Assembly (NCBI GenBank): GCA_016125475.1
Contig: WGLR01000033.1
Span: 1-64,000 of the forward strand
Direction: 5' to 3'
DNA: 64,000 nt
Source of the DNA: Betaproteobacteria bacterium
GTDB lineage: Bacteria; Pseudomonadota; Gammaproteobacteria; Burkholderiales; Ga0077523
Both the position numbers and the translations under genes were made by a program. Shown here piece by piece: positions 7,508 to 60,605 of the stretch. Numbering within the stretch: the first letter of the stretch is position 1; every line of letters begins with the position of its first letter. The notes under the pieces are model-generated. The model was not told the origin of the DNA, did not search any database, and saw only the letters and a program-made list of their open reading frames with translations.

Positions 7508-9388
7508 TCAGCCGATCGCTCTGGCGGACTGGTAGCGATACTTGAGAAAGTCCTGGGCGTGGCTCAGCACGGTGAACGCCTCGCGCAGGCTCTTCCGCTC
7601 GAACTCGGAGAGGCGCTCGGGCTCGATGCTGTTGTCCGGCTCGCGCCCCGCCTTGAGGTCCTCCACCTGATTGCGCAGCCGGACCCACGCGATGAACTCC
7701 AGCGCGTCCAGCAGGTCGGCCCCCCGCCCGGGCGGCAGGACCTTCGCGCGCATCACCTCGACGAGCCGCTCGTAGGAATTGAGCGCCTCGGACCCCACCG
7801 CGAGCGCGTGGACGCGAATGAGGTCCGTGAGCGGGGCCGTCCCGCGTCGCTTGAGATTGATCGCGGCGCTGTGACGGCCATCGGCTTCGAGCACGAAATC
7901 CTTGAAGAACCCCAGCGGTGGCGTGCGCAGCAGCGCGTTGCGCGCCATGCTGGCGAGGAACCGCGGATGCTGGCGCGCATTGCGTGCGAACCTGCGGCGC
8001 AACCCTTCCGCCCACTCGGTGCGGCCGTATACGCCGTCCAGGTCGAAGAAGATGTTGCTGTCCAGCAGACCTTCCGGCGTCGGGTGCTCGATCCAGGTAT
8101 CGAAATACCCTTCCCAGACCTTCAGCGGCTGGCGCCACTTCCGGTTGGTCGCCATCACGCCGCCAGTGCAGTAGGTGTAGCCGCAGCGCGCGAGGCCGTC
8201 CGACACGAACTTCGCGAGCTGCTCGAAGTACTCGTCGTGCCGCCCGGGATCGAAGCGGTTGTCGAGAACGAGCGCATTGTCCTGGTCGGTCACCACGCTC
8301 TGCTCCTGCCGGCCCATCGACCCGAGTGCCAGGAAACAGTAGGGCAGCGGCGGCGCCCCGAACTGCTGTTCGGCCAGTTCCAGCAGTCGCTGCTTGAAGG
8401 CTCGCCCTATCGCGGACATCGCGCTGCCGACGATGCGGGCACTGGTGTCCCCGCCGGCCATGCGCACGAAACTCGCGCGCGCCTCCGGCGCAAGCGCGGC
8501 GAGTTCGTCGACGGTCTGGGCGCGGTAGATCCGGCTGACGACGAAGAGACTGTTGTGGGATTCGTGGCGAATGATGTCGGACAGCGCGATCACGCCGATC
8601 GGCCGCTGCTGGTGCAGCACCGGGAGGTGGTGGACATTGTTGTGGAGCATCACGAGCATTGCCTCGAACACGAGCCGGCTGTGCTCGATGGTCACCACCT
8701 GCGTCGTCGCGATCGTCACCGCCGGCGTTTCGAGCGGCAGGCCCTTCGCCACGAGACGGGTACGCAGGTCACGGTCGGTGACGATCCCGGCGAGCGTCAC
8801 CGCGGCATCCGTGTCACCGGACCCGCTCACGAGCAGGAGTGAAGACACCCCGGCCTCGGTCATGCAGCGTGCGGCCTCCAGCGACGAAGCGCTGTCCGGC
8901 AGCGTGACCGGTTCACGCTGAACGAGGCTCTCGACCGTGGCCGAAAGCAGGTCGTTCCCCGCCTGCTGGCGCGAAACCACTTTCTGCAGCCGGGAGCGGT
9001 CTTCGATCTCCACCTGATCGGCAAAGGTCTCGTTTCGCTCGAACAGCTCCGTAAAGACCGGCTCCGGTACGAGGTAGAGCAGCGTGTCCTCGCTCGCCCG
9101 GGCGGGGAAGCGGACCTTCTTCCGGTGCAGCAGTCCGAACTCGCCGAAGTAGTCCCCTTCGGTCAGCCGGTTGTACAGCGTGCCGTCGCGCCGGAACACC
9201 TCCACGACCCCGCTGCGCACGATGTGCCAAAACAGGGCGTCCTGACCGAAGTCGACGATCGGGGACCCGGCCTTGTAGTAGCGCACGTCGATCGAGCCGC
9301 CGATGTGCTCGAGCGCCCCCTCGTCCAGGTCCCGGAACGGCGGGTACCTGCGCAGGAAGTCGACGATCTCCTGCTGTTCGTCCTGCAT
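7508..9388 (-). CDS. Cyclic-nucleotide-binding / tandem CBS / DUF294 nucleotidyltransferase protein
   Basis: The 626-residue cytoplasmic protein has four parts: a cNMP-binding domain (about 10-140, with GDYFGEFGLL); two CBS domains (about 150-280, containing GIVTDRDLRTR and PIGVIALSDII); a DUF294 nucleotidyltransferase-like domain with GSMGRQE at 356-362 and the metal-binding pair Asp368/Asp370; and a helical DUF294 C-terminal domain to 626. The GlnD-like GSxGRxE-DxD motif is intact, so nucleotidyl transfer to a protein is plausible. The start codon follows the stop of the transporter gene directly, with its ribosome site inside that gene, indicating translational coupling. Family members are thought to regulate a neighbouring transporter; here cAMP or adenosine nucleotides would be the signal. 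The regulatory target is inference. Confidence 0.92.
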   Translation of the reverse strand: MQDEQQEIVDFLRRYPPFRDLDEGALEHIGGSIDVRYYKAGSPIVDFGQDALFWHIVRSGVVEVFRRDGTLYNRLTEGDYFGEFGLLHRKKVRFPARASEDTLLYLVPEPVFTELFERNETFADQVEIEDRSRLQKVVSRQQAGNDLLSATVESLVQREPVTLPDSASSLEAARCMTEAGVSSLLLVSGSGDTDAAVTLAGIVTDRDLRTRLVAKGLPLETPAVTIATTQVVTIEHSRLVFEAMLVMLHNNVHHLPVLHQQRPIGVIALSDIIRHESHNSLFVVSRIYRAQTVDELAALAPEARASFVRMAGGDTSARIVGSAMSAIGRAFKQRLLELAEQQFGAPPLPYCFLALGSMGRQEQSVVTDQDNALVLDNRFDPGRHDEYFEQLAKFVSDGLARCGYTYCTGGVMATNRKWRQPLKVWEGYFDTWIEHPTPEGLLDSNIFFDLDGVYGRTEWAEGLRRRFARNARQHPRFLASMARNALLRTPPLGFFKDFVLEADGRHSAAINLKRRGTAPLTDLIRVHALAVGSEALNSYERLVEVMRAKVLPPGRGADLLDALEFIAWVRLRNQVEDLKAGREPDNSIEPERLSEFERKSLREAFTVLSHAQDFLKYRYQSARAIG

Positions 9389-22593: not shown

Positions 22594-24297
22594 ATGAGCA
22601 ATCCAAGACCTCGGTCCCGCAGTTGCGCACGCTCGATCGTCGACATTCTGGCGGCCGGCGCGTTAGCGCTTTGCGCATTCTCCACGCATGCCTCGGACGT
22701 TTCGCCCCAGCGCCTGCTGCACACCGACTCGGAGCCGCAGAACTGGCTCACCTACTATGGCAACTACAAGGGCTGGCGGTACAGCGAGCTGTCTCAGGTC
22801 AACACCGACAACGTGAAGGACCTGACAGTCAAGTGGACCTTCCTGCCCGGTGCCGAGGAAGACTTCCAGACGACCCCGATCGTCGTGGACGGCGTCATGT
22901 ACATCGCAACGCCGAAGAACACCGTCTATGCGCTCGACGCGACCAACGGCAAGATTCTCTGGCGCCACGATCACAAGCTTCCCGACAACATGCCGGTGCA
23001 GCTCTGGGGTCCGAGCAAGAGCCGCGGCGTCTCCGTGTCCGGGAACCAGGTATTTCTGGCCACGGGAGACGGCCAGATCATTGCATTGGACGCGAAGACC
23101 GGCAGCGAGAACTGGCACACGGTGGCGGCAGACTACAAGGCCGGAAACGGCTTCATCCAGCCGCCCCTGATCGTCGGAGATCTCGCGATCGTGGGGACGT
23201 TCACCGCAGAAATCGCGACTCGCGGCTTCGTGGCCGCCTACAACGTGCACACAGGCAAACAGGCGTGGCGCTTCGACACGATTCCGGGGCCGGGGCAGCC
23301 CGGCCATGAGACCTGGGCCGGGGATTCCTGGAAACACGGCTGCGGTCCCGTGATCCTGCCACCCACCTACGACGCCGACATGGACCTGATCTACTTCGGC
23401 GTGGGTAATCCCTGCCCGATGTGGAACGGCGACGTGCGCAAGGGCGACAACCTCTACACGAACTCGATCGTGGCCCTGCATCCCGAGACTGGCCGTCTCG
23501 AGTGGTACCACCAGCTCATTCCCCACGGAGTCTGGGATCTCGATACGTTCGGAGAAGTCGTGCTCGTCAATACCAGGATCAACGGGCGACCGGTTCGCGC
23601 CGCCCTGCAGGCCGGAAAGTCGGGATACTTTTATGCGATCGATCGCACGGAAGGGCAGTTCCTGTACGCGAAGCCCTTCGTGTCGCGGATCACGTGGGCC
23701 AAGGGACTGGACGACGAGGGCAGACCGATTCCGGGTGTCGTTCCGGGAGACACGACACAGACGCTATGCCCCGGTGCGGTGAGCGGTGGCAAGTCCTGGA
23801 ACCAGACGGCGTATTCACCGAAGCTCGACTATTACTTCATCCCGGCCGGAGAAGTCTGCGACAACGTCAAGCAGGCGGAAGTGAGCCCGACCGCGAAACC
23901 GGGCGATCTCATACTCGGCGGCAAGTTCGAGTCCGCCAAGGGCTCCGGCGGTTCGCTCACGGCGTTCGACGTGAAAACGGGGCAGCCGGTCTGGAAGTAC
24001 AACTCCCCGTTCCCGATGCGCAGCTCGGTCCTCGCAACGGCCGGCGGCCTGCTCTTCACGGGCGATCTCGAGAGTGACGTGCTCGCTTTCGATGCGGCGA
24101 ACGGCAAGGTCCTCTGGAAGTTTCCGGCGGGCTCCATGCCGCAGTCCTCCATCACGTACTCGGTGAACGGCAAGCAGTACGTCGCGGTGGGCGTGGGCTG
24201 GGGACAGGTACTCGCGAATTTCCTGCCCGCCTACATGCCGGAACTCGCGAAGGTGCCACGTGGCAGCGTGCTCCTCGTGTTTGCATTACCCGATTGA
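22594..24297 (+). CDS. PQQ-dependent alcohol dehydrogenase-like eight-bladed propeller protein (atypical)
   Basis: The 567-residue periplasmic protein has a signal peptide (about 1-34) and propeller repeats of the methanol/ethanol dehydrogenase family, with clear blades such as NWLTYYGNYKGWRYSELSQV and GDNLYTNSIVALHPETGRLE. The catalytic-Asp loop reads HGVWDLD; an Asp two residues after the catalytic Asp is the mark of lanthanide-using enzymes such as XoxF. The metal-ligand Glu (in TAEIATRG) and Asn (in GVGNP) positions are kept. However, the vicinal Cys-Cys that covers PQQ is missing (LWGPSKSRG), and the PQQ-stacking Trp position appears to be Ile (GCGPVIL). The gene has an AGGAGG site. No cytochrome or pqq gene is near. 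Confidence 0.85.
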   Translation: MSNPRPRSRSCARSIVDILAAGALALCAFSTHASDVSPQRLLHTDSEPQNWLTYYGNYKGWRYSELSQVNTDNVKDLTVKWTFLPGAEEDFQTTPIVVDGVMYIATPKNTVYALDATNGKILWRHDHKLPDNMPVQLWGPSKSRGVSVSGNQVFLATGDGQIIALDAKTGSENWHTVAADYKAGNGFIQPPLIVGDLAIVGTFTAEIATRGFVAAYNVHTGKQAWRFDTIPGPGQPGHETWAGDSWKHGCGPVILPPTYDADMDLIYFGVGNPCPMWNGDVRKGDNLYTNSIVALHPETGRLEWYHQLIPHGVWDLDTFGEVVLVNTRINGRPVRAALQAGKSGYFYAIDRTEGQFLYAKPFVSRITWAKGLDDEGRPIPGVVPGDTTQTLCPGAVSGGKSWNQTAYSPKLDYYFIPAGEVCDNVKQAEVSPTAKPGDLILGGKFESAKGSGGSLTAFDVKTGQPVWKYNSPFPMRSSVLATAGGLLFTGDLESDVLAFDAANGKVLWKFPAGSMPQSSITYSVNGKQYVAVGVGWGQVLANFLPAYMPELAKVPRGSVLLVFALPD

Positions 24298-26492: not shown

Positions 26493-27500
26493 ATGGCCCA
26501 TCATCCTCTGACTTCTCTCGACAGTGCCGGCACGGCCGGGGCGTTCCGCTACCTGGCCGGATCGGTCGAAACCTCCCTGTTCCGCAATGGCAAGGTGCTG
26601 ACCCGGCGCGACCGCGACGGCAGCGACGCCGGCACGGAAGGGGTCCTCGTGGACGAAAGGCAGGTGACGGTGCATGACGCCCGCACCCTTCACGGCGCGG
26701 ACGCACGCACGCTGACGGCGCACGGCTTCGAGCTTCTTCGGCACCCCATGGCGCACCCTTCGCTGGACTTCTTCGACCACGGGCAGGTCGTTTCGCAGTA
26801 CTACCCGGAGTGTGCCGAGATCATCCGGGCACACACCGGCGCCGCCCGGGTCTTCGCGTTCGACCACAACGTCCGGTCGGCAACGGGCAAGAAGAGCCAG
26901 AAGCGCATCACGGGAGGGCAGCAGGTCCAGGGGCCCGCGCACATCGTGCACGGCGACTACACCCTCACGAGTGCCCCGCAGCGCCTGCTGGACCTGACCG
27001 AACCTCCCCGGGTGAACGACACCCTTGCGTCCGTGCTCCCGCCCGGAAAGTCGCTGCTCGAACGGGGCGCCGTCGAGAAGGCCGTCGCCGAAGGCGGGCG
27101 TTTCGCGATCATCAACCTCTGGCGCAACATCGTCGCGGATCCTGTCGCCGTCTATCCCCTGGCGCTCTGCGACGGACGCACGGTCCAGCCGGACCAGCTC
27201 GTCGTGTTCGAGATCCACTATCACGACCGGATCGGAGAGAACTATTTCGCGAAGTACGCGACGACGCACGAGTGGTACTACTACCCGAACATGGTCCGGG
27301 AGGAAGCCCTGCTCATCAAGCAGTGGGATTCGGCCGGGGAACTCGCGCGTTCACGTGGCGCCCGTGCCGACGCCGCCGCGGCGGATCCCCACGCGCCGTG
27401 CACGTTCAGCTTCCACAGCGCGTTCGACGACCCGCTCACGCCGCCGGACGCACCTGACCGGTGGAGCATCGAGGTACGCTGTGCGGTGCTTTATGAGTGA
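26493..27500 (+). CDS. CmcJ/NvfI-family oxidoreductase
   Basis: The 335-residue soluble protein matches the family of cephamycin protein CmcJ and fungal NvfI: an N-terminal beta part (AFRYLAGSV near residue 20), FAFDHNVR at about 127, then the conserved AHIVHGDYT with the His-x-Asp pair that can bind Fe(II) in 2-oxoglutarate-type enzymes, and a late region INLWRNI ending with a Trp/Tyr-rich stretch (HEWYYYPNM). Family members modify secondary metabolites or aromatic compounds by oxidation or isomerisation. The partner may be the divergent SDR. Its stop is 39 bp from the stop of the convergent cyclase gene. The substrate cannot be inferred. Confidence 0.85.
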   Translation: MAHHPLTSLDSAGTAGAFRYLAGSVETSLFRNGKVLTRRDRDGSDAGTEGVLVDERQVTVHDARTLHGADARTLTAHGFELLRHPMAHPSLDFFDHGQVVSQYYPECAEIIRAHTGAARVFAFDHNVRSATGKKSQKRITGGQQVQGPAHIVHGDYTLTSAPQRLLDLTEPPRVNDTLASVLPPGKSLLERGAVEKAVAEGGRFAIINLWRNIVADPVAVYPLALCDGRTVQPDQLVVFEIHYHDRIGENYFAKYATTHEWYYYPNMVREEALLIKQWDSAGELARSRGARADAAAADPHAPCTFSFHSAFDDPLTPPDAPDRWSIEVRCAVLYE

Positions 27501-27539: not shown

Positions 27540-28466
27540 CTAGCGGCAGTCGAACTCGAGACGCTCGCCCGCCGCGGTCCCGGGTACGCCGAGCGTGATG
27601 TATCCCTGCCCGTCGAGCAGGGCCTGGTCGCGGCGCAGCAGCTGCTCCCGCGCGCCTTCGACGTACAGGTACGTGCCGTTCGTCGATTCGTCGACGAGGA
27701 AATACTGATCGACCCGGCGCTCGATGCGCGCGTGCACCCGCGACGCCGTCCGTTCCGCGACGACGACGTCACAGGTGGCCGAACGGCCGACGGTCAGACT
27801 GTTGCGCCCGAGCGGAAACGCGATCTCCCGATCGGCGATGCGCAGGCTCAGGGAGCGCCGCCGAAACGCACGGGGCGATGTCCCCACGAGCTGGGTAGTC
27901 GACTCGTCCTCGTCCCAGATGAACTGGAACACCTGCATCGGGTCCGCCTTGCCCCGGACCGGCAGCGACGACAGATCGCGCCACGCCCCGCGGCCCTGTT
28001 CGGGCAGCGCCTCGACCGTCGCACCGGTCGCGTAGATCTGCCCGGACTTCGCGAGGCCTGCCAGCCGCGCCGCGACGTTCACGCAGTCTCCCCAGTAGTC
28101 GCCGTTGTCCTCCAGGACTGGCCCGTCGTGGAAACCGACGCGGATCCCCATGCGGATTCCCGACACCGGCGCCATCCCCGAGACGCGAACCTGCATGGTC
28201 TGCGCCGCGACGCTCGCCTGTGAAGGCGTGTCGAATGCGGCCATGACCTCGTCACCGATGCGCTTGACGACTTGCCCGCCGTTCTCCTTCACGACCGCCT
28301 GCAGGCCGTCCAGACACGCCTCGATGGCGCGGGCCGCCGGCCCGTCGCCGAGCGTCTCGTAGAGCGTGGTGCTGTCGGAGACGTCCGCGAAGAGGATCGT
28401 CCGGTGCCGGGGAACGAGCGTCATGAGGGGTGTCGCCCCCCGCGTCGATCGTCGGCTCGCGGACAT
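27540..28466 (-). CDS. Class III adenylate cyclase with C-terminal FHA domain
   Basis: Residues 20-190 form a complete cyclase catalytic domain: metal ligands Asp28 (FADVSDST) and Asp72 (KRIGDEV), adenine-selecting pair Lys68 and Asp123, and transition-state residues Asn130 and Arg134 (GDCVNVAARL). The Lys/Asp pair predicts ATP as substrate. Residues 205-305 are an FHA domain with the phosphothreonine-binding motifs GRSATCD, SRVHA and DESTNGTY. There is no membrane segment. The gene follows the Ser/Thr kinase gene by 85 bp on the same strand, so the FHA domain probably docks to a phosphorylated kinase or its substrate and couples it to cAMP synthesis. This coupling is inference. Confidence 0.93.
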   Translation of the reverse strand: MSASRRSTRGATPLMTLVPRHRTILFADVSDSTTLYETLGDGPAARAIEACLDGLQAVVKENGGQVVKRIGDEVMAAFDTPSQASVAAQTMQVRVSGMAPVSGIRMGIRVGFHDGPVLEDNGDYWGDCVNVAARLAGLAKSGQIYATGATVEALPEQGRGAWRDLSSLPVRGKADPMQVFQFIWDEDESTTQLVGTSPRAFRRRSLSLRIADREIAFPLGRNSLTVGRSATCDVVVAERTASRVHARIERRVDQYFLVDESTNGTYLYVEGAREQLLRRDQALLDGQGYITLGVPGTAAGERLEFDCR

Positions 28467-28551
28467 CCCGAGACTCCCCGCCCGGCAATCGTGCCCGCTC
28501 CGTGTGCGTGCCGGACGATCACGAGAACGAGGCTCGCTGCGAGGCGCCAGC

Positions 28552-29958
28552 TCATGACCGGCTCTCGACGGCCTTGCGAATGAACAGGCGTCTCTCGTTC
28601 CTGTCGTCGATCTCGTCCGCGATGAGCAGGTAGAGCTCGGTCTCGTCGCGTGCCTTCTGGGCCGCTCGCTTCACGACGACCTTCGCGAGCGGTCCGAGAT
28701 GCCGCGCAAGCATCAGCTCCGCGCGTGCAAGCACCGCCTCGTCGAAACGCGTTGCAGCAGGCGCGCTCGGCATCGAGGGGGAGCGCCCCGATGACGGCCT
28801 GGAGTTCACCGGAGCAGAGGTCTCGCCGCCGGTGTGCCGGCGCACGAACTTCGCGCGCGCATCGGCGTCGCCGATCTCGCTGCCGACCGCTTCAACGAGC
28901 TGTGCGACGGTGCGCGCGCTCCGGGCCGCGCTCCTCACGATGACGGTCGCGATCGGGCCGATGTGCTTCGCGAGGTCGGCTTCGATCACCCCGATCGTCG
29001 CGGACTCGATCCCCGCACCGATCCCGGTGTCGTCGGGCGCGGCGCCACCACCGCGTCCGTCGAGTGCGACCGTCGCCCCGGGTGGCGCGACGTTCGGGTC
29101 GCCGTAAAGGGCTGCCTTGACGTCCGCGACACTCTGGGGTCGCTCGGCCTCGTCGCTGGCCAGCATCCAGTCGATCGTGCGCAGCAGCACGTCGCTGTAG
29201 CGACCCCGATCGCCTGCGCGGGTCGCGGGCGGCATCGTGTCTTCACGGATCCGGGCGGTGGCCTCGAGGGGCCGGGTGCCCGTGACCGTCCAGTAGAGCA
29301 CGCCGCCCAGGGCATAGAGATCGGTCCACGGCCCCTGACGACCCTGGGTGTGGTACTGCTCGAGCGGGGCATAACCGGGTGTCACGATCGCGGTCAGATC
29401 CCGACTTCCCTGCGCGCGCGCGGATCCGAAGTCGAGCAGTACCGGCGCCCCGTCCTGCTGGATGAAGATGTTGGCGGGCTTGATGTCGCGGTGGAGGATG
29501 CCGGCGGCGTGCACGACGCCCAGACCGTCCAGCACGGGAACGATCAGCGCGCGCACGTCGGGCTCGGAGAGGGGTCGACGGCCGTCGACCCAGTCGCTGA
29601 GCGGCTGCCCGGCCACGAATTCCATGACCATGTAGGCCGTGGCGTTCGCCTGGAAGAACCGCATGACCCGGACGATGTTCGGATGGCGGAACGACGCGAG
29701 CGTGCGGGACTCCTCGACGAAGCGCTCCAGCCCCCACCGGAAGGTTTCGGCGTGGCCGTCGGAACGCGGTCGCACGGACTGGTCCCGCGCGCGCGTCGCC
29801 ATGTCCGCGGGCAGGAACTCCTTGATCGCCACGCGCAGGTTGAGATTCGCGTCCGTCGCGAGATAGGTGAGGCCGAAGCCCCCGACGCCCAGCGTGCTCT
29901 CGATGCGGTACTCGTGGAGACCGTATCCGCTCGGAAGGGCGATGTCGGCGGCGTCCAT
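28552..29958 (-). CDS. Eukaryotic-like Ser/Thr protein kinase with duplicated C-terminal domain
   Basis: Residues 14-285 are a full kinase: glycine loop LGVGGFG, Lys46 in VAIK, HRDIKPAN at 157-164 and DFG at 176-178, followed by the activation segment TPGYAPLEQY. There is no transmembrane helix, so it is cytosolic. After a linker, two homologous repeats of about 50 residues follow (323-373 with AKHIGPIATVIVRSAARSA; 410-461 with ARHLGPLAKVVVKRAAQKA), joined by a Pro/Ser-rich stretch. The repeats are helical and carry a His-x-Gly-Pro core. The reading frame also allows a GTG one codon earlier (29961). It sits between the heme sensor gene (25 bp upstream) and the FHA-cyclase gene. Confidence 0.93.
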   Translation of the reverse strand: MDAADIALPSGYGLHEYRIESTLGVGGFGLTYLATDANLNLRVAIKEFLPADMATRARDQSVRPRSDGHAETFRWGLERFVEESRTLASFRHPNIVRVMRFFQANATAYMVMEFVAGQPLSDWVDGRRPLSEPDVRALIVPVLDGLGVVHAAGILHRDIKPANIFIQQDGAPVLLDFGSARAQGSRDLTAIVTPGYAPLEQYHTQGRQGPWTDLYALGGVLYWTVTGTRPLEATARIREDTMPPATRAGDRGRYSDVLLRTIDWMLASDEAERPQSVADVKAALYGDPNVAPPGATVALDGRGGGAAPDDTGIGAGIESATIGVIEADLAKHIGPIATVIVRSAARSARTVAQLVEAVGSEIGDADARAKFVRRHTGGETSAPVNSRPSSGRSPSMPSAPAATRFDEAVLARAELMLARHLGPLAKVVVKRAAQKARDETELYLLIADEIDDRNERRLFIRKAVESRS

Positions 29959-29983
29959 CACTGCGCGTCGGCCGCGGGCGCGG

Positions 29984-30853
29984 CTACTCGCCGATCATGC
30001 GCATCGCCTTCTCGAGGCTGCGGCGCATTCGGTTGAAGGACTGGCCGAGCAGCGACATCTCGTCGCGCCCGGTCTCGTCGAATTCCGGAATGTCCGTCTC
30101 GCCCATCGAGACCCGATCGGCCGCAGCGGACATCCGCGTGACAGGTCTCACGATGAGCAGCGAGAGCATGACGTTGAGGATCACGAACAGCACGACGAAG
30201 ATGGCCGCGAGAGAACCCATGAACGTGAGGAACACGCGATTGGCGTTGCGCACCGGCAGCGTCATCGGCACCGAGACGATCTGCGCGCCGATGACCTCGC
30301 CCTTGGACCACCCGAATCCGTTGCCGGGTCCGTAGAGCCTGACCATGGCGGGCGGTGCACTGTCCGGAACGGAATGGCACGACAGGCAGGCGGCGTCGTT
30401 CACGCGGAGCGGTCGGGCCAGGTAGAGGGAGGGTCCGAGTTCCGTGTCGCGGACGCCGGAGATCTCCCTGCGCGAGCCGTCGTTGCGGAACGCGTTCACA
30501 ATGTCCGCTTCCCAGTCCACCGCGCGGTCGGCCGGGTTGGTGGGGTTGAGTGTCGCTTCCTTGTAGCTGTAGTCCGCGTAGGTGGCACGCAGCCGGCGCA
30601 TGATCTCGTGCGCCGCGAAGGCGGGCACGCTCTCCTTCAGGAACTCCCCGTCCACCTTGCGCAGTTTGGCGCGGACGTCCTCGACGGTGTAGGCGCGCAT
30701 CGCGAGCGCCGCCACCATCATCACGCCCGCGTTGCGCAGCACTTCCTCCTCCGCCGTCCGGTGCAGCAGCCGGTAGGAAACGGTACCCGAGATCCCGAGA
30801 CCGAGCGCGAACACGACGAGCAGAACGACGTTGAACTTGAGGCGCAGTCCCAA
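29984..30853 (-). CDS. DUF3365 periplasmic c-type heme sensor with HAMP domain
   Basis: The 289-residue protein has a membrane helix (about 7-30), a periplasmic DUF3365 domain (31-205) with one c-type heme site CLSCH (156-160), a second helix (208-235) and a short HAMP linker (236-285) at the C-terminus. DUF3365/Tll0287-like domains bind heme and are thought to sense redox state or gases. There is no own output domain, so the HAMP part must pass the signal to another protein. The kinase gene that follows 25 bp downstream is the obvious partner. The start is TTG at 30853, supported by a GGAGGG site 7 nt upstream. Confidence 0.92.
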   Translation of the reverse strand: MGLRLKFNVVLLVVFALGLGISGTVSYRLLHRTAEEEVLRNAGVMMVAALAMRAYTVEDVRAKLRKVDGEFLKESVPAFAAHEIMRRLRATYADYSYKEATLNPTNPADRAVDWEADIVNAFRNDGSRREISGVRDTELGPSLYLARPLRVNDAACLSCHSVPDSAPPAMVRLYGPGNGFGWSKGEVIGAQIVSVPMTLPVRNANRVFLTFMGSLAAIFVVLFVILNVMLSLLIVRPVTRMSAAADRVSMGETDIPEFDETGRDEMSLLGQSFNRMRRSLEKAMRMIGE

Positions 30854-30887
30854 GGTGTTTCCCTCCGATCACGACGGGCGCGGCGGC

Positions 30888-30893
30888 ATTATA
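30888..30893 (-). promoter_or_regulatory. Candidate -10 box upstream of the heme sensor operon
   Basis: On the minus strand a perfect TATAAT lies 35 bp before the TTG start of the DUF3365 gene, in an otherwise very GC-rich intergenic stretch. No good -35 hexamer is found 16-18 bp upstream, so an activator or alternative sigma factor may be needed. Confidence 0.45.
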
Positions 30894-30961
30894 GGCGCCG
30901 CCTCGCCCGGCGACCACGACGGCTGCCGGCGCTCGGTCCGCGCGACGTTCAGGCTACTGGA

Positions 30962-31381
30962 TCAGCCCGCAAGCGTCGCGAGCCGCGAGGCGACGAAGTC
31001 TGTGACGGCCTGATCTTCCTCGGACTTGAGCCCGCTCACGCCGACCGCGCCGACGAGGGTGCCGTCCGCGGTCTTGAGCGGAGACCCGCCCGGCAGTGCC
31101 GTGAGCAGCGGGTCACAGAAATAGGCGGCCTCGATCTTCTCCTTGTGGAGTCGTTCGAGGAACGCCTGGGTGGTCACCCCCATGCGCGCACTGCTGTAGG
31201 CCTTGCCCTGGGCGATCTGGACACTGCGCACGGGGGAGCCCGGCATGCGTGCGAAGGCGAGCAGGAAACCCTTGTCGTCGCACACCGCCACGCAGATGGG
31301 ACGGCCGAAGTCTTCGGTTGCCTTCTGCATCGCGTGCGCAACGAGTTGCTGTGCCCTTTCCAGATCCAGTGTCTGCATCAT
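30962..31381 (-). CDS. GlcG/HbpS-like heme-degrading or heme-binding protein
   Basis: A 139-residue single-domain protein of the GlcG/HbpS/PduO-C family, with the pattern ICVAVCDDKGFLLAFARMPG, SVQIAQGKAYSSARMG and the Gly-rich LPGGSPL, then GAVGVSG. No signal peptide is present, so this member stays in the cytoplasm. HbpS of Streptomyces binds heme and takes part in redox sensing; other members are of unknown function. It lies 108 bp upstream of the heme sensor/kinase/cyclase operon on the same strand and could join it functionally. It is divergent from the second PQQ dehydrogenase-like gene. Confidence 0.88.
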   Translation of the reverse strand: MMQTLDLERAQQLVAHAMQKATEDFGRPICVAVCDDKGFLLAFARMPGSPVRSVQIAQGKAYSSARMGVTTQAFLERLHKEKIEAAYFCDPLLTALPGGSPLKTADGTLVGAVGVSGLKSEEDQAVTDFVASRLATLAG

Positions 31382-31544
31382 GAGTACTCCCGTCGAAGAA
31401 TTGATCGATCGCGCGATTCTACAAAAGGTGACGACGCCAGCCCCCTCCGGGTCGTCCGGGTGCCCGCCACGCCACTGTTAACATGACCCAGGGTTCCACG
31501 GTGATCCCGTGGTCCGACGACACCGCCACAGGAGGAGCCACACC

Positions 31545-33341
31545 ATGCGTCACGCCCTTCTTGCCGCCCTCGTGCTCGCGTGCGCGCTACCTGCCCACGC
31601 CGACACGAGCCCTGTCGACGACGCGCGTCTGCTGCGCGCGGACGCCGACCACGCCGACTGGCTCACCTACGGGCGCGACTACGCGAACCGTCGCTTCTCG
31701 CCCCTCGCGCAGATCAATAGGGGCAACGTGGGCCGCCTCGCACCGGCCTGGACCTTCCATTCGGGCGTCAAGGCGACGTTCGAGGCCAGCCCGATCGTCG
31801 TCGACGGCGTCATGTACGTGTCGCTCCCGTTCGATCACGTCGTCGCACTCGATGCCGCCACGGGACGGGAGATCTGGCGGTACAGGCACGACCGCCACAC
31901 GAAACGGATGTGCTGCGGACCCGCGAATCGCGGCGTGGCCGTTGCCTACGGCAAGGTCTTCATCGGCACGGTGGACGCCCGGCTGATCGCGCTGGATCAG
32001 CGTACCGGCAGGCCGGTCTGGGACATCCCGCTCGTCGACGACCTCCACGGCACGACCGAACACAAGGACCAGCTCGGCGCGAACGACCCGCTGCGGCAGA
32101 GCACGGTGGCGGGCTCGACCGGCGTCGGCGCGAACATGGCCCCGCTCGTGTATCGCGGCAAGGTCGTCATCGGCATCACGGGTGTCGGCTACGGACTGCA
32201 CCTGGACTCCGACCGCCCCGGCGCGCCGCTGGGCGCGGTGGTCGGCATCGCCGGGCAGAGTCAGCGGGCCGGCTTCTACGCGGCGTTCGACGCGGAGACC
32301 GGAAAGAGGCTGTGGCAGTTCGACTCGACGCCGAAGTCGGGCTGGGCGGGGGACTTTCGCGCGACGACGCCCGGCGGCGAAGCACTCCATCGCGACCTCG
32401 CGAACGAGCGCGCGAACCTGAACAAGTACCCGGATGCCGCCCGGGAGGGCGGCGGCTCGGCGTGGACGACGCCCGCGTTCGATCCCGACACGAACACGCT
32501 GTTCGTCGGCATCGGAAATCCGTCTCCGCAGATGGACGACGAAACCCGGCCGGGCGACAACCTCTACACGGTGTCTCTCGTGGCACTGGACGCCGACACC
32601 GGGGCCCTGAAGTGGTACTGCCAGTTCGTGCCGCACGATCTCTGGGGCTACGACGTCGCGAGCCCGCCCGTGCTGCTGGACGTCCCGACCCGGGAAGGCA
32701 TGGTGCCGGCCGTCGGTCATGCGGGCAAGACCGGCTGGTGGTACGTGGTCGACCGCCGGACGGGACGCCTGCTCTACAAGTCGCCGGACCTCGTTCCGCA
32801 CTCGAACATGTTCGCGCGCCCCACCGAGCAGGGCGTCGACATCGCACCGGGCGGAGCCGGCGGCGTGAGCTGGTCCCCCCTCGCCCTCGACCCCCGAACG
32901 GGGCTCGCCTACATCGCCGCACTGCACTGGCCGATGCGCTACACGGTGACCGAGATTCCCGCGACCGACGACAAGCCTGCGGTGCGTTACACGAAGCTCG
33001 AACCCGCGGGAGGTCCGCGATGGGGCGTCCTGAGCGCGGTCGACACGCGTGCGGAAGGCAGGATCGTCTGGCAGGTCCGGACGCCGGAACCCCTCATGGG
33101 CGGCGTGCTCGCGACGGCCGGCAACCTGATTTTCACGGGAGAAGGCGATGGCAGCTTCCGGGCCTACGACGCCGCCTCGGGCAAGGTGCTCTGGACACAC
33201 CGCACCGAGGCCGGCGCGAACGCGCCGCCCGTGACCTACGAGGTCGACGGACGGCAGTACGTCGCGGTGGCGGCCGGCGGCAACCAGCTCTTCGGCTTCA
33301 CCCGGGGAGACGCGATCGAGGTCTTCGCGCTGCCGGAATAG
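31545..33341 (+). CDS. PQQ-dependent dehydrogenase-like eight-bladed propeller protein (second copy, atypical)
   Basis: A 598-residue periplasmic protein with signal peptide MRHALLAALVLACALPAHA. The ATG at 31545 follows AGGAGG; the open frame begins 12 codons earlier but without a ribosome site. Propeller motifs are clear (DWLTYGRDYANRRFSPLAQI, GDNLYTVSLVALDADTGALK). It has the vicinal Cys pair (MCCGPANRG) and a Trp at the PQQ-stacking position (GGGSAWTTP). The catalytic loop reads HDLWGYD, with Gly where the catalytic Asp is expected, and the metal-ligand Glu position looks like Gln (AGQSQRAG). It may therefore be a divergent subgroup with different chemistry. No electron-acceptor cytochrome is adjacent. 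Confidence 0.87.
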   Translation: MRHALLAALVLACALPAHADTSPVDDARLLRADADHADWLTYGRDYANRRFSPLAQINRGNVGRLAPAWTFHSGVKATFEASPIVVDGVMYVSLPFDHVVALDAATGREIWRYRHDRHTKRMCCGPANRGVAVAYGKVFIGTVDARLIALDQRTGRPVWDIPLVDDLHGTTEHKDQLGANDPLRQSTVAGSTGVGANMAPLVYRGKVVIGITGVGYGLHLDSDRPGAPLGAVVGIAGQSQRAGFYAAFDAETGKRLWQFDSTPKSGWAGDFRATTPGGEALHRDLANERANLNKYPDAAREGGGSAWTTPAFDPDTNTLFVGIGNPSPQMDDETRPGDNLYTVSLVALDADTGALKWYCQFVPHDLWGYDVASPPVLLDVPTREGMVPAVGHAGKTGWWYVVDRRTGRLLYKSPDLVPHSNMFARPTEQGVDIAPGGAGGVSWSPLALDPRTGLAYIAALHWPMRYTVTEIPATDDKPAVRYTKLEPAGGPRWGVLSAVDTRAEGRIVWQVRTPEPLMGGVLATAGNLIFTGEGDGSFRAYDAASGKVLWTHRTEAGANAPPVTYEVDGRQYVAVAAGGNQLFGFTRGDAIEVFALPE

Positions 33342-59855: not shown

Positions 59856-60605
59856 ATGACGACAAGTGTTGGCATTCAACCACTTAGTATCGAACGCCTG
59901 CGTACCGCGTGTTCCACGTGCGGGCTCCGGGAGCTCTGCCTGCCTGTCGGCCTCGCGGAAGCCGAGCTCGAGCGGCTGGACGACCTCATACAGGTGCGCC
60001 GCACGGCCAAGAAAGGGCAGAGCATCTACCGCTCGGGCGATGCGTTCGCGGCCCTCTATGCCGTGCGTTCGGGCTTCTTCAAGACGACCATCCTCTCCGA
60101 GGACGGTCGCGATCAGGTGACCGGCTTCTACATGGGCGGCGAGATCGTCGGCATGGACGGCATCGGCACCGAACTCCACACCTGCGACGCCGTGGCCCTC
60201 GAGGACAGCGAGGTGTGCGTGATCCCGTTCTCGCGTCTGGAGGACCTCTCGCGTCAGGTGCCGGCGCTGCAGAGCCACTTCCACAAGGTGATGAGCCGGG
60301 AGATCGTGCGCGACCACGGCGTGATGATGCTTCTCGGCAGCATGCGCGCGGAAGAGCGCCTCGCCGCCTTCCTCGTGAACCTCTCGCAGCGCTTCGTGGC
60401 CCGGGGCTATTCGCCTTCGGAGTTCTACCTGCGGATGACCCGCGAGGAGATCGGCAGCTACCTGGGCCTGAAGCTCGAGACGGTGAGCCGCGTGTTCTCG
60501 CGGTTCCAGGACGAGGGCTACATCAGCGTGCAGCAGAAGCACGTGCGCATCATCGACATCCCGAAACTGAGACAGCTGATCGGCCAGCGCGGCGGTGCCT
60601 GCTAG
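59856..60605 (+). CDS. fnr: FNR-type oxygen-sensing transcription regulator
   Basis: A 249-residue CRP/FNR protein. The N-terminal cysteines C19, C22 and C28 (ACSTCGLRELC) with C121 (SEVCVIPF) can hold the oxygen-labile 4Fe-4S cluster. The cNMP-like sensor core follows, and the C-terminal helix-turn-helix has MTREEIGSYLGLKLETVSRV, with the Glu and Ser-Arg that read TTGAT half-sites. It controls anaerobic and microaerobic genes. The ATG at 59856 is chosen; an ATG at 59814 lies inside the FNR box. The frame continues upstream through antisense hemN, which is not coding. Confidence 0.97.
   Translation: MTTSVGIQPLSIERLRTACSTCGLRELCLPVGLAEAELERLDDLIQVRRTAKKGQSIYRSGDAFAALYAVRSGFFKTTILSEDGRDQVTGFYMGGEIVGMDGIGTELHTCDAVALEDSEVCVIPFSRLEDLSRQVPALQSHFHKVMSREIVRDHGVMMLLGSMRAEERLAAFLVNLSQRFVARGYSPSEFYLRMTREEIGSYLGLKLETVSRVFSRFQDEGYISVQQKHVRIIDIPKLRQLIGQRGGAC

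Follow-up and report, generated by a model that had tools for sequence, protein, structure and literature searches.

In a 64,000-nucleotide stretch of a betaproteobacterial genome (assembly GCA_016125475.1, contig WGLR01000033.1, positions 1 to 64,000; hereafter the window), three adjacent genes encode a membrane sensor that has a periplasmic heme domain and stops at its HAMP domain, a Ser/Thr kinase with two C-terminal repeats of family PF26309, and a class III adenylate cyclase with an FHA domain. The sensor and kinase are likely a bacterial counterpart of the split receptor Af1503/Af1502, with enzymes attached to the partner, and what evolution has kept as a unit is the HAMP-ended sensor together with its PF26309 effector. 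A sequence-only reading had proposed a chain from heme state through kinase and phosphothreonine docking to cyclic AMP (cAMP). The link from sensor to kinase has held up, since conserved pairs are found from either side, while the link from kinase to cyclase through FHA is no more than suggested. That proposal did not include the PF26309 repeats, which would give a sensor lacking an output domain a route to a soluble kinase.

The sensor gene (29984..30853, minus strand, as are all features of the locus described below unless otherwise stated) starts with TTG, preceded by GGAGG, and encodes 289 amino acids; its assignment is supported by Pfam matches to PF11845 and PF00672 and by orthologs. The periplasmic Tll0287-like (sCache_heme, DUF3365) domain occupies residues 32-196 (30266..30760; E 3.9e-36). 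It carries a CXXCH heme c motif, CLSCH, that begins at residue 156 (30374..30388), and the family match and the motif together place the protein among the sCache_heme sensors. There are two membrane helices, and the HAMP domain (30011..30166; E 1.2e-12) is the sole cytosolic part. The C-terminus lies 8 residues past the Pfam HAMP match, in agreement with the earlier description of a DUF3365 sensor ending in HAMP with no output domain. Among the 23 HAMP matches in the window genome, this sensor alone stops at its HAMP, the remaining 22 frames continuing by 221 residues or more. This ratio of one in 23, which describes one genome, speaks against explaining the adjacency by an abundance of HAMP-ended proteins, and that explanation was rejected.

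A HAMP-bearing sCache_heme protein from P. azotoformans is reported to bind nitric oxide (NO) tightly and to form no stable O2 complex, and a stand-alone sCache_heme protein from P. putida to show redox-type behaviour (PMC12889525). Because the window sensor has the HAMP-bearing build, NO is our first guess, and by this analogy it is probably the ligand. In one related locus (L138:1-560) a TGA breaks the sensor frame at the conserved Trp of GFGW; this may be a pseudogene, a sequencing error or recoding.

The kinase gene (28552..29958) lies 25 bp downstream of the sensor gene and starts at ATG 29958 or, alternatively, at GTG 29961. Its catalytic domain (residues 18-276, 29134..29910; Pkinase E 1.8e-37) contains the glycine loop, Lys, HRD..N and DFG of Hanks-type kinases, and PpkA (5hnv, E 3e-65) is the closest kinase of solved structure. 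The residues named here are active-site residues. The sequence-only reading was right to call this a cytosolic Ser/Thr kinase. It missed, however, that the protein is more than a bare catalytic domain: the final ~150 residues consist of two tandem ~59-residue repeats with a core like 'LA.hIGPxA.vlV..A' (repeat 1, 28834..29004; repeat 2, 28570..28743). The precomputed Pfam label on the window's own kinase in the protein database is PF26309, which we take to be the family also named DUF8082. Local Pfam scans of the repeats, run with a library outside which PF26309 lies, matched no repeat family, and no paper on PF26309 or DUF8082 was found in open-licence PMC text.

AlphaFold2 predicts the repeat pair to be helical, with a pLDDT of 82 overall and above 90 across most of both repeats; repeat 2 modelled alone reaches 93. 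Repeat 1 is predicted to have four helices, with the GP motif between h1 and h2, and repeat 2 three, with h1 and h2 continuous. G-P-x-A is near-invariant among the repeats (57 and 84 aligned sequences), and the GP motif of STAC domains, given as LGPx(x)A (PMC4834066), falls within the first half of the ~60 residues. When the repeat profile was run against 177,635 solved sequences Af1502 ranked first, with an E value of 0.05 that is not significant, and fold searches with the repeat models gave matches to 5a1q that point the same way but are weak, none of them significant. For the window sensor's HAMP, the first match was the HAMP domain of AF1503.

To survey the pairing from the sensor side, six orthologous sensors were aligned, a named genome collection was scanned, and the analysis took the best 80 of 558 confirmed stretches. 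By their record labels the 80 loci are mostly from Betaproteobacteria, with some from Gammaproteobacteria, Myxococcaceae and Nitrospirae, and many are from metagenome-assembled genomes. The profiles used for HAMP and for the repeat derive from sequences gathered in this analysis. Open reading frames (ORFs) were taken as stop-to-stop frames, so an overlap of frames does not equal an overlap of genes. A repeat ORF is present in 77 of the 80 loci, and the three loci without one are all at contig ends: the L084 and L104 contigs stop just past the sensor (L104 with a cut kinase), and the L055 contig starts just ahead of it, with nothing similar downstream. Same-strand placement within 300 bp of the sensor was found for 76 of 79 repeat ORFs (73 downstream, 3 upstream), and in 63 cases the sensor and repeat frames overlap or lie no more than 4 nt apart.

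The attached enzyme varies. The 79 repeat ORFs comprise 35 kinases, 33 kinase-cyclase fusions, 10 cyclases (two with a badly decayed cyclase domain) and one fragment. In L109, L121, L126 and L128 a single sensor lies between a kinase-repeat gene and a cyclase-repeat gene. A quick tree built from 81 sensors requires 5 changes of effector class, against a mean of 31.8 for shuffled labels; the pairs have therefore been inherited together, with a few exchanges. A comparable sensor was found in none of 11 other genomes of the window's genus and in 5 of 48 genomes from elsewhere in the order; four of these five adjoin a kinase, and the fifth is at a contig end. Three proteins carry three repeats behind a decayed or cyclase-like N-terminus (L105:9857-11644, L113:4219-6006 and L180:6605-8086).

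So that the survey would not be circular, whole genomes were also searched with the repeat alone. Matches were found in 22 of 274 genomes of the class (threshold 1e-6), 4 of 299 genomes of the window's phylum (1e-5), and 30 of 369 genomes of the class with a wider profile (1e-3); each of these three counts includes the window genome, and the samples overlap. In 35 loci from the window's phylum, 31 of 37 repeat ORFs lie on the same strand within 300 bp of a HAMP-ended ORF; of the other six, two are at 437 and 467 bp, three are cut by contig ends and one is unpaired (L172). The repeat occurs in 23 of 195 genomes of the phylum to which the Myxococcaceae-labelled genome belongs. There, the 25 loci fetched hold 25 repeat ORFs, of which 19 have a HAMP-ended ORF no more than 300 bp away. 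In three more the sensor is divergent and 0.6-1.3 kb distant, in L199 it lies 1.6 kb off, and L184 (at a contig edge) and L189 have no HAMP-ended neighbour. In the phylum of the Nitrospirae-labelled genome the repeat was found in 2 of 245 genomes, the new case, L228, again being a sensor-repeat pair. L228 stands outside the main tallies, as do L178 (sensor adjacent) and L179 (none), both from genomes selected by sensor; a weak repeat match, G718:C113, lies outside the fetched loci.

Across the survey 136 of 137 HAMP ORFs end at the HAMP, a figure that is partly selection because the profiles derive from sequences of the same analysis. Pfam itself finds HAMP in P0003, L145, L168, L169, L196, L197 and L228. 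All 80 orthologous sensors carry CXXCH, and among the HAMP-ended ORFs of the other two sets the motif is found in 27 of 32 and in 10 of 24; the pairing is independent of heme. L145, L168 and L169 have dCache_1-HAMP sensors adjoining small one-repeat proteins, and in L228 a dCache_3-HAMP sensor is paired with the repeat ORF. The N-termini of the small one-repeat proteins look DUF4388-like or roadblock-like, judging by sub-threshold matches of relatives or by inspection; a protein search with the one from L145 returned three relatives. In seven myxococcotal loci (L192, L193, L196, L198, L200, L202 and L204) the kinase comes first, followed by the one-repeat protein and then the HAMP-ended sensor. 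The one-repeat protein and dCache_1-HAMP sensor of L169 have a further neighbour at L169:2340-3668 (+), a small-GTPase-like gene whose roadblock match is weak.

The end of the sensor has features that would suit a docking site. In the ortholog set the AS2 helix of the HAMP is the most conserved region (0.82), against 0.72 for the heme domain and 0.63-0.72 for all others, and the nine residues after AS2 are the least conserved (0.63). Near the C-terminus a pattern R[MLI]xxS[LM]xxx[MI], formulated after inspection of the tails, is present in 75 of 80, 22 of 32 and 17 of 24 HAMP-ended sensors of the three sets, and in the window genome in one of the 23 HAMPs, namely that of the window sensor. The tail pattern is common to sensors with different input domains. 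From the AS2 conservation and the tail pattern, we propose the AS2 helix and C-terminal tail, SFNRMRRSLEKAMRMIGE (29987..30052), as the docking site.

In the mechanism that we propose, the heme state of the periplasmic Cache domain (probably NO binding, or redox) would be the input, the two PF26309 repeats of the kinase would dock on the sensor's HAMP tail, and docking would alter kinase activity. The kinase would then write a phosphothreonine mark for the FHA domain to read, and this second docking would switch the adenylate cyclase and so set cAMP production. That sensor and kinase form a functional unit we regard as very likely, and that the repeat is the receiver of the sensor's signal as probable. 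PF26309 is the likely plug because HAMP-ended sensors adjoin the repeat in three bacterial groups with varying attached enzymes. The cyclase step is tentative, and we put it a little short of an even chance; the split receptor as a whole, from repeat docking through the kinase to the cyclase, is evenly poised in our judgement.

The cyclase gene (27540..28466; start at 28466, with an inner ATG at 28424 as alternative) lies 85 bp beyond the kinase, so that strand, reading frames and both gaps are as the sequence-only reading gave them. Its catalytic domain (residues 23-177, 27936..28400; Guanylate_cyc E 3.6e-14) has 3mr7 and Ma1120 as its nearest solved structures. Asp28, Lys68, Asp72, Asp123, Asn130 and Arg134 are present and supply the metal Asp pair, Asn/Arg and Lys/Asp of class III adenylate cyclases; the enzyme is predicted to be active. 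A Lys/Asp pair marks ATP-type (adenylate) cyclases. In our own cyclase alignment the window's second metal Asp was one column off; the residues are therefore given from the PDB alignment, and the window cyclase was left out of the tally of decayed domains. The FHA core (residues 225-270, 27657..27794; E 5.7e-12) has G227-R228, S242..H245 and N263-G264, which correspond to the GR, SxxH and NG motif (PMC1262709), and is predicted to bind phosphothreonine. The earlier claim of a catalytically complete cyclase with an FHA domain is borne out by these residues, and the protein is the likely downstream effector. The window genome has 16 cyclic nucleotide-binding matches, two of them in the window (9032-9283, minus strand, and 60000-60254, plus strand), and a cAMP signal could therefore be read.

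Some observations weigh against parts of the proposed chain. The exact gene order of the triplet, sought in relatives, is rare, recurring in one of the 80 loci (L043), and the triplet as a conserved operon was rejected. In the kinase-cyclase-repeat fusions the cyclase core is changed in 23 of 33, all four residues being kept in 10. Two repeat proteins, L172:7112-8722 (-) and L179:7740-8372 (-), have no HAMP-ended neighbour and are exceptions to the pairing. Cyclase-repeat proteins keep all four core residues in eight of ten cases and are changed in two. The repeat-fused cyclases were dropped as adenylate cyclases, since the alignment rows inspected have no Lys/Asp pair; in L060, L068, L071, L077, L083 and others the fused cyclase domain may now be a structural part.

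The rarity of the triplet bears on the possibility that sensor and kinase are one unit and the FHA-cyclase an independent neighbour outside the kinase's control. In the order, 37 of 150 genomes encode a cyclase with FHA (AC-FHA), and among the 18 high-scoring places fetched a repeat kinase lies within 300 bp in L149 alone, apparently on the same contig as L043; both facts fit such independence. However, the window and L043 share the order, and divergent AC-FHA genes occur near the sensor in L118 (~1 kb off), G021/L035 and G151/L164, with one several kb off in L082. In 7 of the 18 places the AC-FHA gene is within 300 bp of some Ser/Thr kinase; FHA-cyclases are therefore often near such kinases, and here the nearest is the sensor's own. 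The 33 fusions of kinase and cyclase-family domains among the 79 repeat ORFs, and the four sensors flanked by both a kinase-repeat and a cyclase-repeat gene, likewise speak for a connection, and we regard an independent cyclase as a serious but somewhat doubtful alternative. In L150-L152, L154 and L157-L159 an FHA-cyclase lies beside an opposite-strand Ser/Thr kinase of about 800-930 amino acids, and L033 has a similar-sized kinase with kinase, HDOD and GAF domains; a large kinase and an FHA-cyclase are possibly a second kinase-FHA-cyclase system.

The remaining alternatives concern what the repeats and heme domain do. The repeats could be a dimerisation or scaffolding module of kinase and cyclase, with the sensor acting through another partner. 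Tandem repeats suit a scaffold, Af1502 was judged monomeric yet is dimeric in the crystal (PMC4834066), and the contact between repeat and HAMP tail is itself a prediction from sequence. A mere dimeriser would not be expected, however, to adjoin HAMP-ended proteins of varied inputs and effectors almost constantly, and we consider this unlikely. It is more improbable still that the repeats regulate solute transport, as was first proposed for STAC, instead of reading HAMP. STAC joins SLC5 transporters to histidine kinases (PMC4834066) and in CbrA packs beneath the transporter (PMC13022988), but in this survey, which scored neighbours other than transporters, what constantly adjoins the repeat is a HAMP-ended sensor. 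In either setting the signal would reach STAC from a part in the membrane, which makes the transport and receiver ideas compatible. Least probable, and hardly to be expected, is a reading of the heme domain as a redox protein of the stand-alone sCache_heme kind (the one from P. putida behaved as redox-type; PMC12889525), with no signalling meaning to its pairing with a kinase. The window sensor instead shares two membrane helices and a HAMP with the P. azotoformans protein that binds NO, and heme-free HAMP-ended sensors show the same pairing.

Directly upstream of the sensor is an HbpS/GlcG-like gene (30962..31381; PF03928, E 5.4e-32). The sequence-only reading had noted it as a heme protein gene; the gene is there, but no HbpS-like match occurs in the 80 sensor loci, and it was rejected as a partner and judged outside the module. 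An NCBIfam scan of these four proteins gave sub-threshold matches alone. Directly downstream of the cyclase, on the opposite strand, is a CmcJ/NvfI family oxidoreductase gene (26493-27500, +), and two pyrroloquinoline quinone-dependent dehydrogenase genes (22594-24297 and 31509-33341, both +) flank the region.

Beyond this locus, we lean towards the view that PF26309/STAC-like domains serve generally to receive signals from HAMP-ended sensors, in a plug-and-socket mode of transmembrane signalling in which the enzymes are separately encoded and exchangeable. Unrelated inputs (heme Cache, other Cache) would then drive kinases, cyclases, fusions and roadblock-like or DUF4388-like proteins. If true, this would explain Af1503-like receptors, and here it would give a line from periplasmic NO or redox state through a kinase to cAMP. 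It would also put Ser/Thr phosphorylation downstream of a periplasmic heme that likely binds NO, offer a candidate function for an unstudied Pfam family, and predict what other seemingly truncated, HAMP-ended sensors pair with.

Af1503, an archaeal receptor, has long been used as a HAMP signalling model (PMC4834066) and has no known output, and papers from 2017 and 2026 (PMC5715377, PMC13022988) call the role of STAC unknown or unclear. With an enzyme attached to a pair of the Af1503/Af1502 type, the partner of a HAMP-ended receptor and the role of STAC become a matter of enzyme assay. AF1503 and AF1502 are operon neighbours in Archaeoglobus fulgidus, and as in the window, HAMP is the receptor's sole cytosolic part and its gene adjoins that of a small helical partner with a GP motif (PMC4834066). 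The window sensor has both marks of such a shortened receptor, a HAMP as its only cytosolic part and an adjacent STAC-type gene, and the likeness extends to the HAMP tail pattern and to the first, non-significant rank of Af1502 with the repeat profile. Af1502 is a single stand-alone domain with no enzyme or known output, whereas in the window a Ser/Thr kinase bears two fused repeats (relatives also have them on cyclases) and a heme domain provides the input.

In the SLC5-STAC histidine kinases CbrA and CrbS, STAC likewise stands between input from the membrane and signalling output, and fusions in which it precedes other outputs, GGDEF among them, also occur (PMC5715377, PMC13022988). In those kinases, however, transporter, STAC and output are in one chain, while in the window sensor and effector are separate proteins and a HAMP-ended sensor takes the place of the transporter. 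The sCache_heme NO sensors share PF11845 with CXXCH, membrane helices and HAMP, but those described in PMC12889525 are stand-alone or fused to a histidine kinase, methyl-accepting chemotaxis protein, GGDEF/EAL or cyclase. No description of a HAMP-ended sCache_heme protein with a separate kinase partner was found in the open-licence PMC literature. Among solved kinases, the nearest to the window's is PpkA of type VI secretion. PpkA is paired there with the FHA protein Fha1. The window kinase differs in bearing PF26309 repeats, and its neighbouring FHA domain sits on a cyclase.

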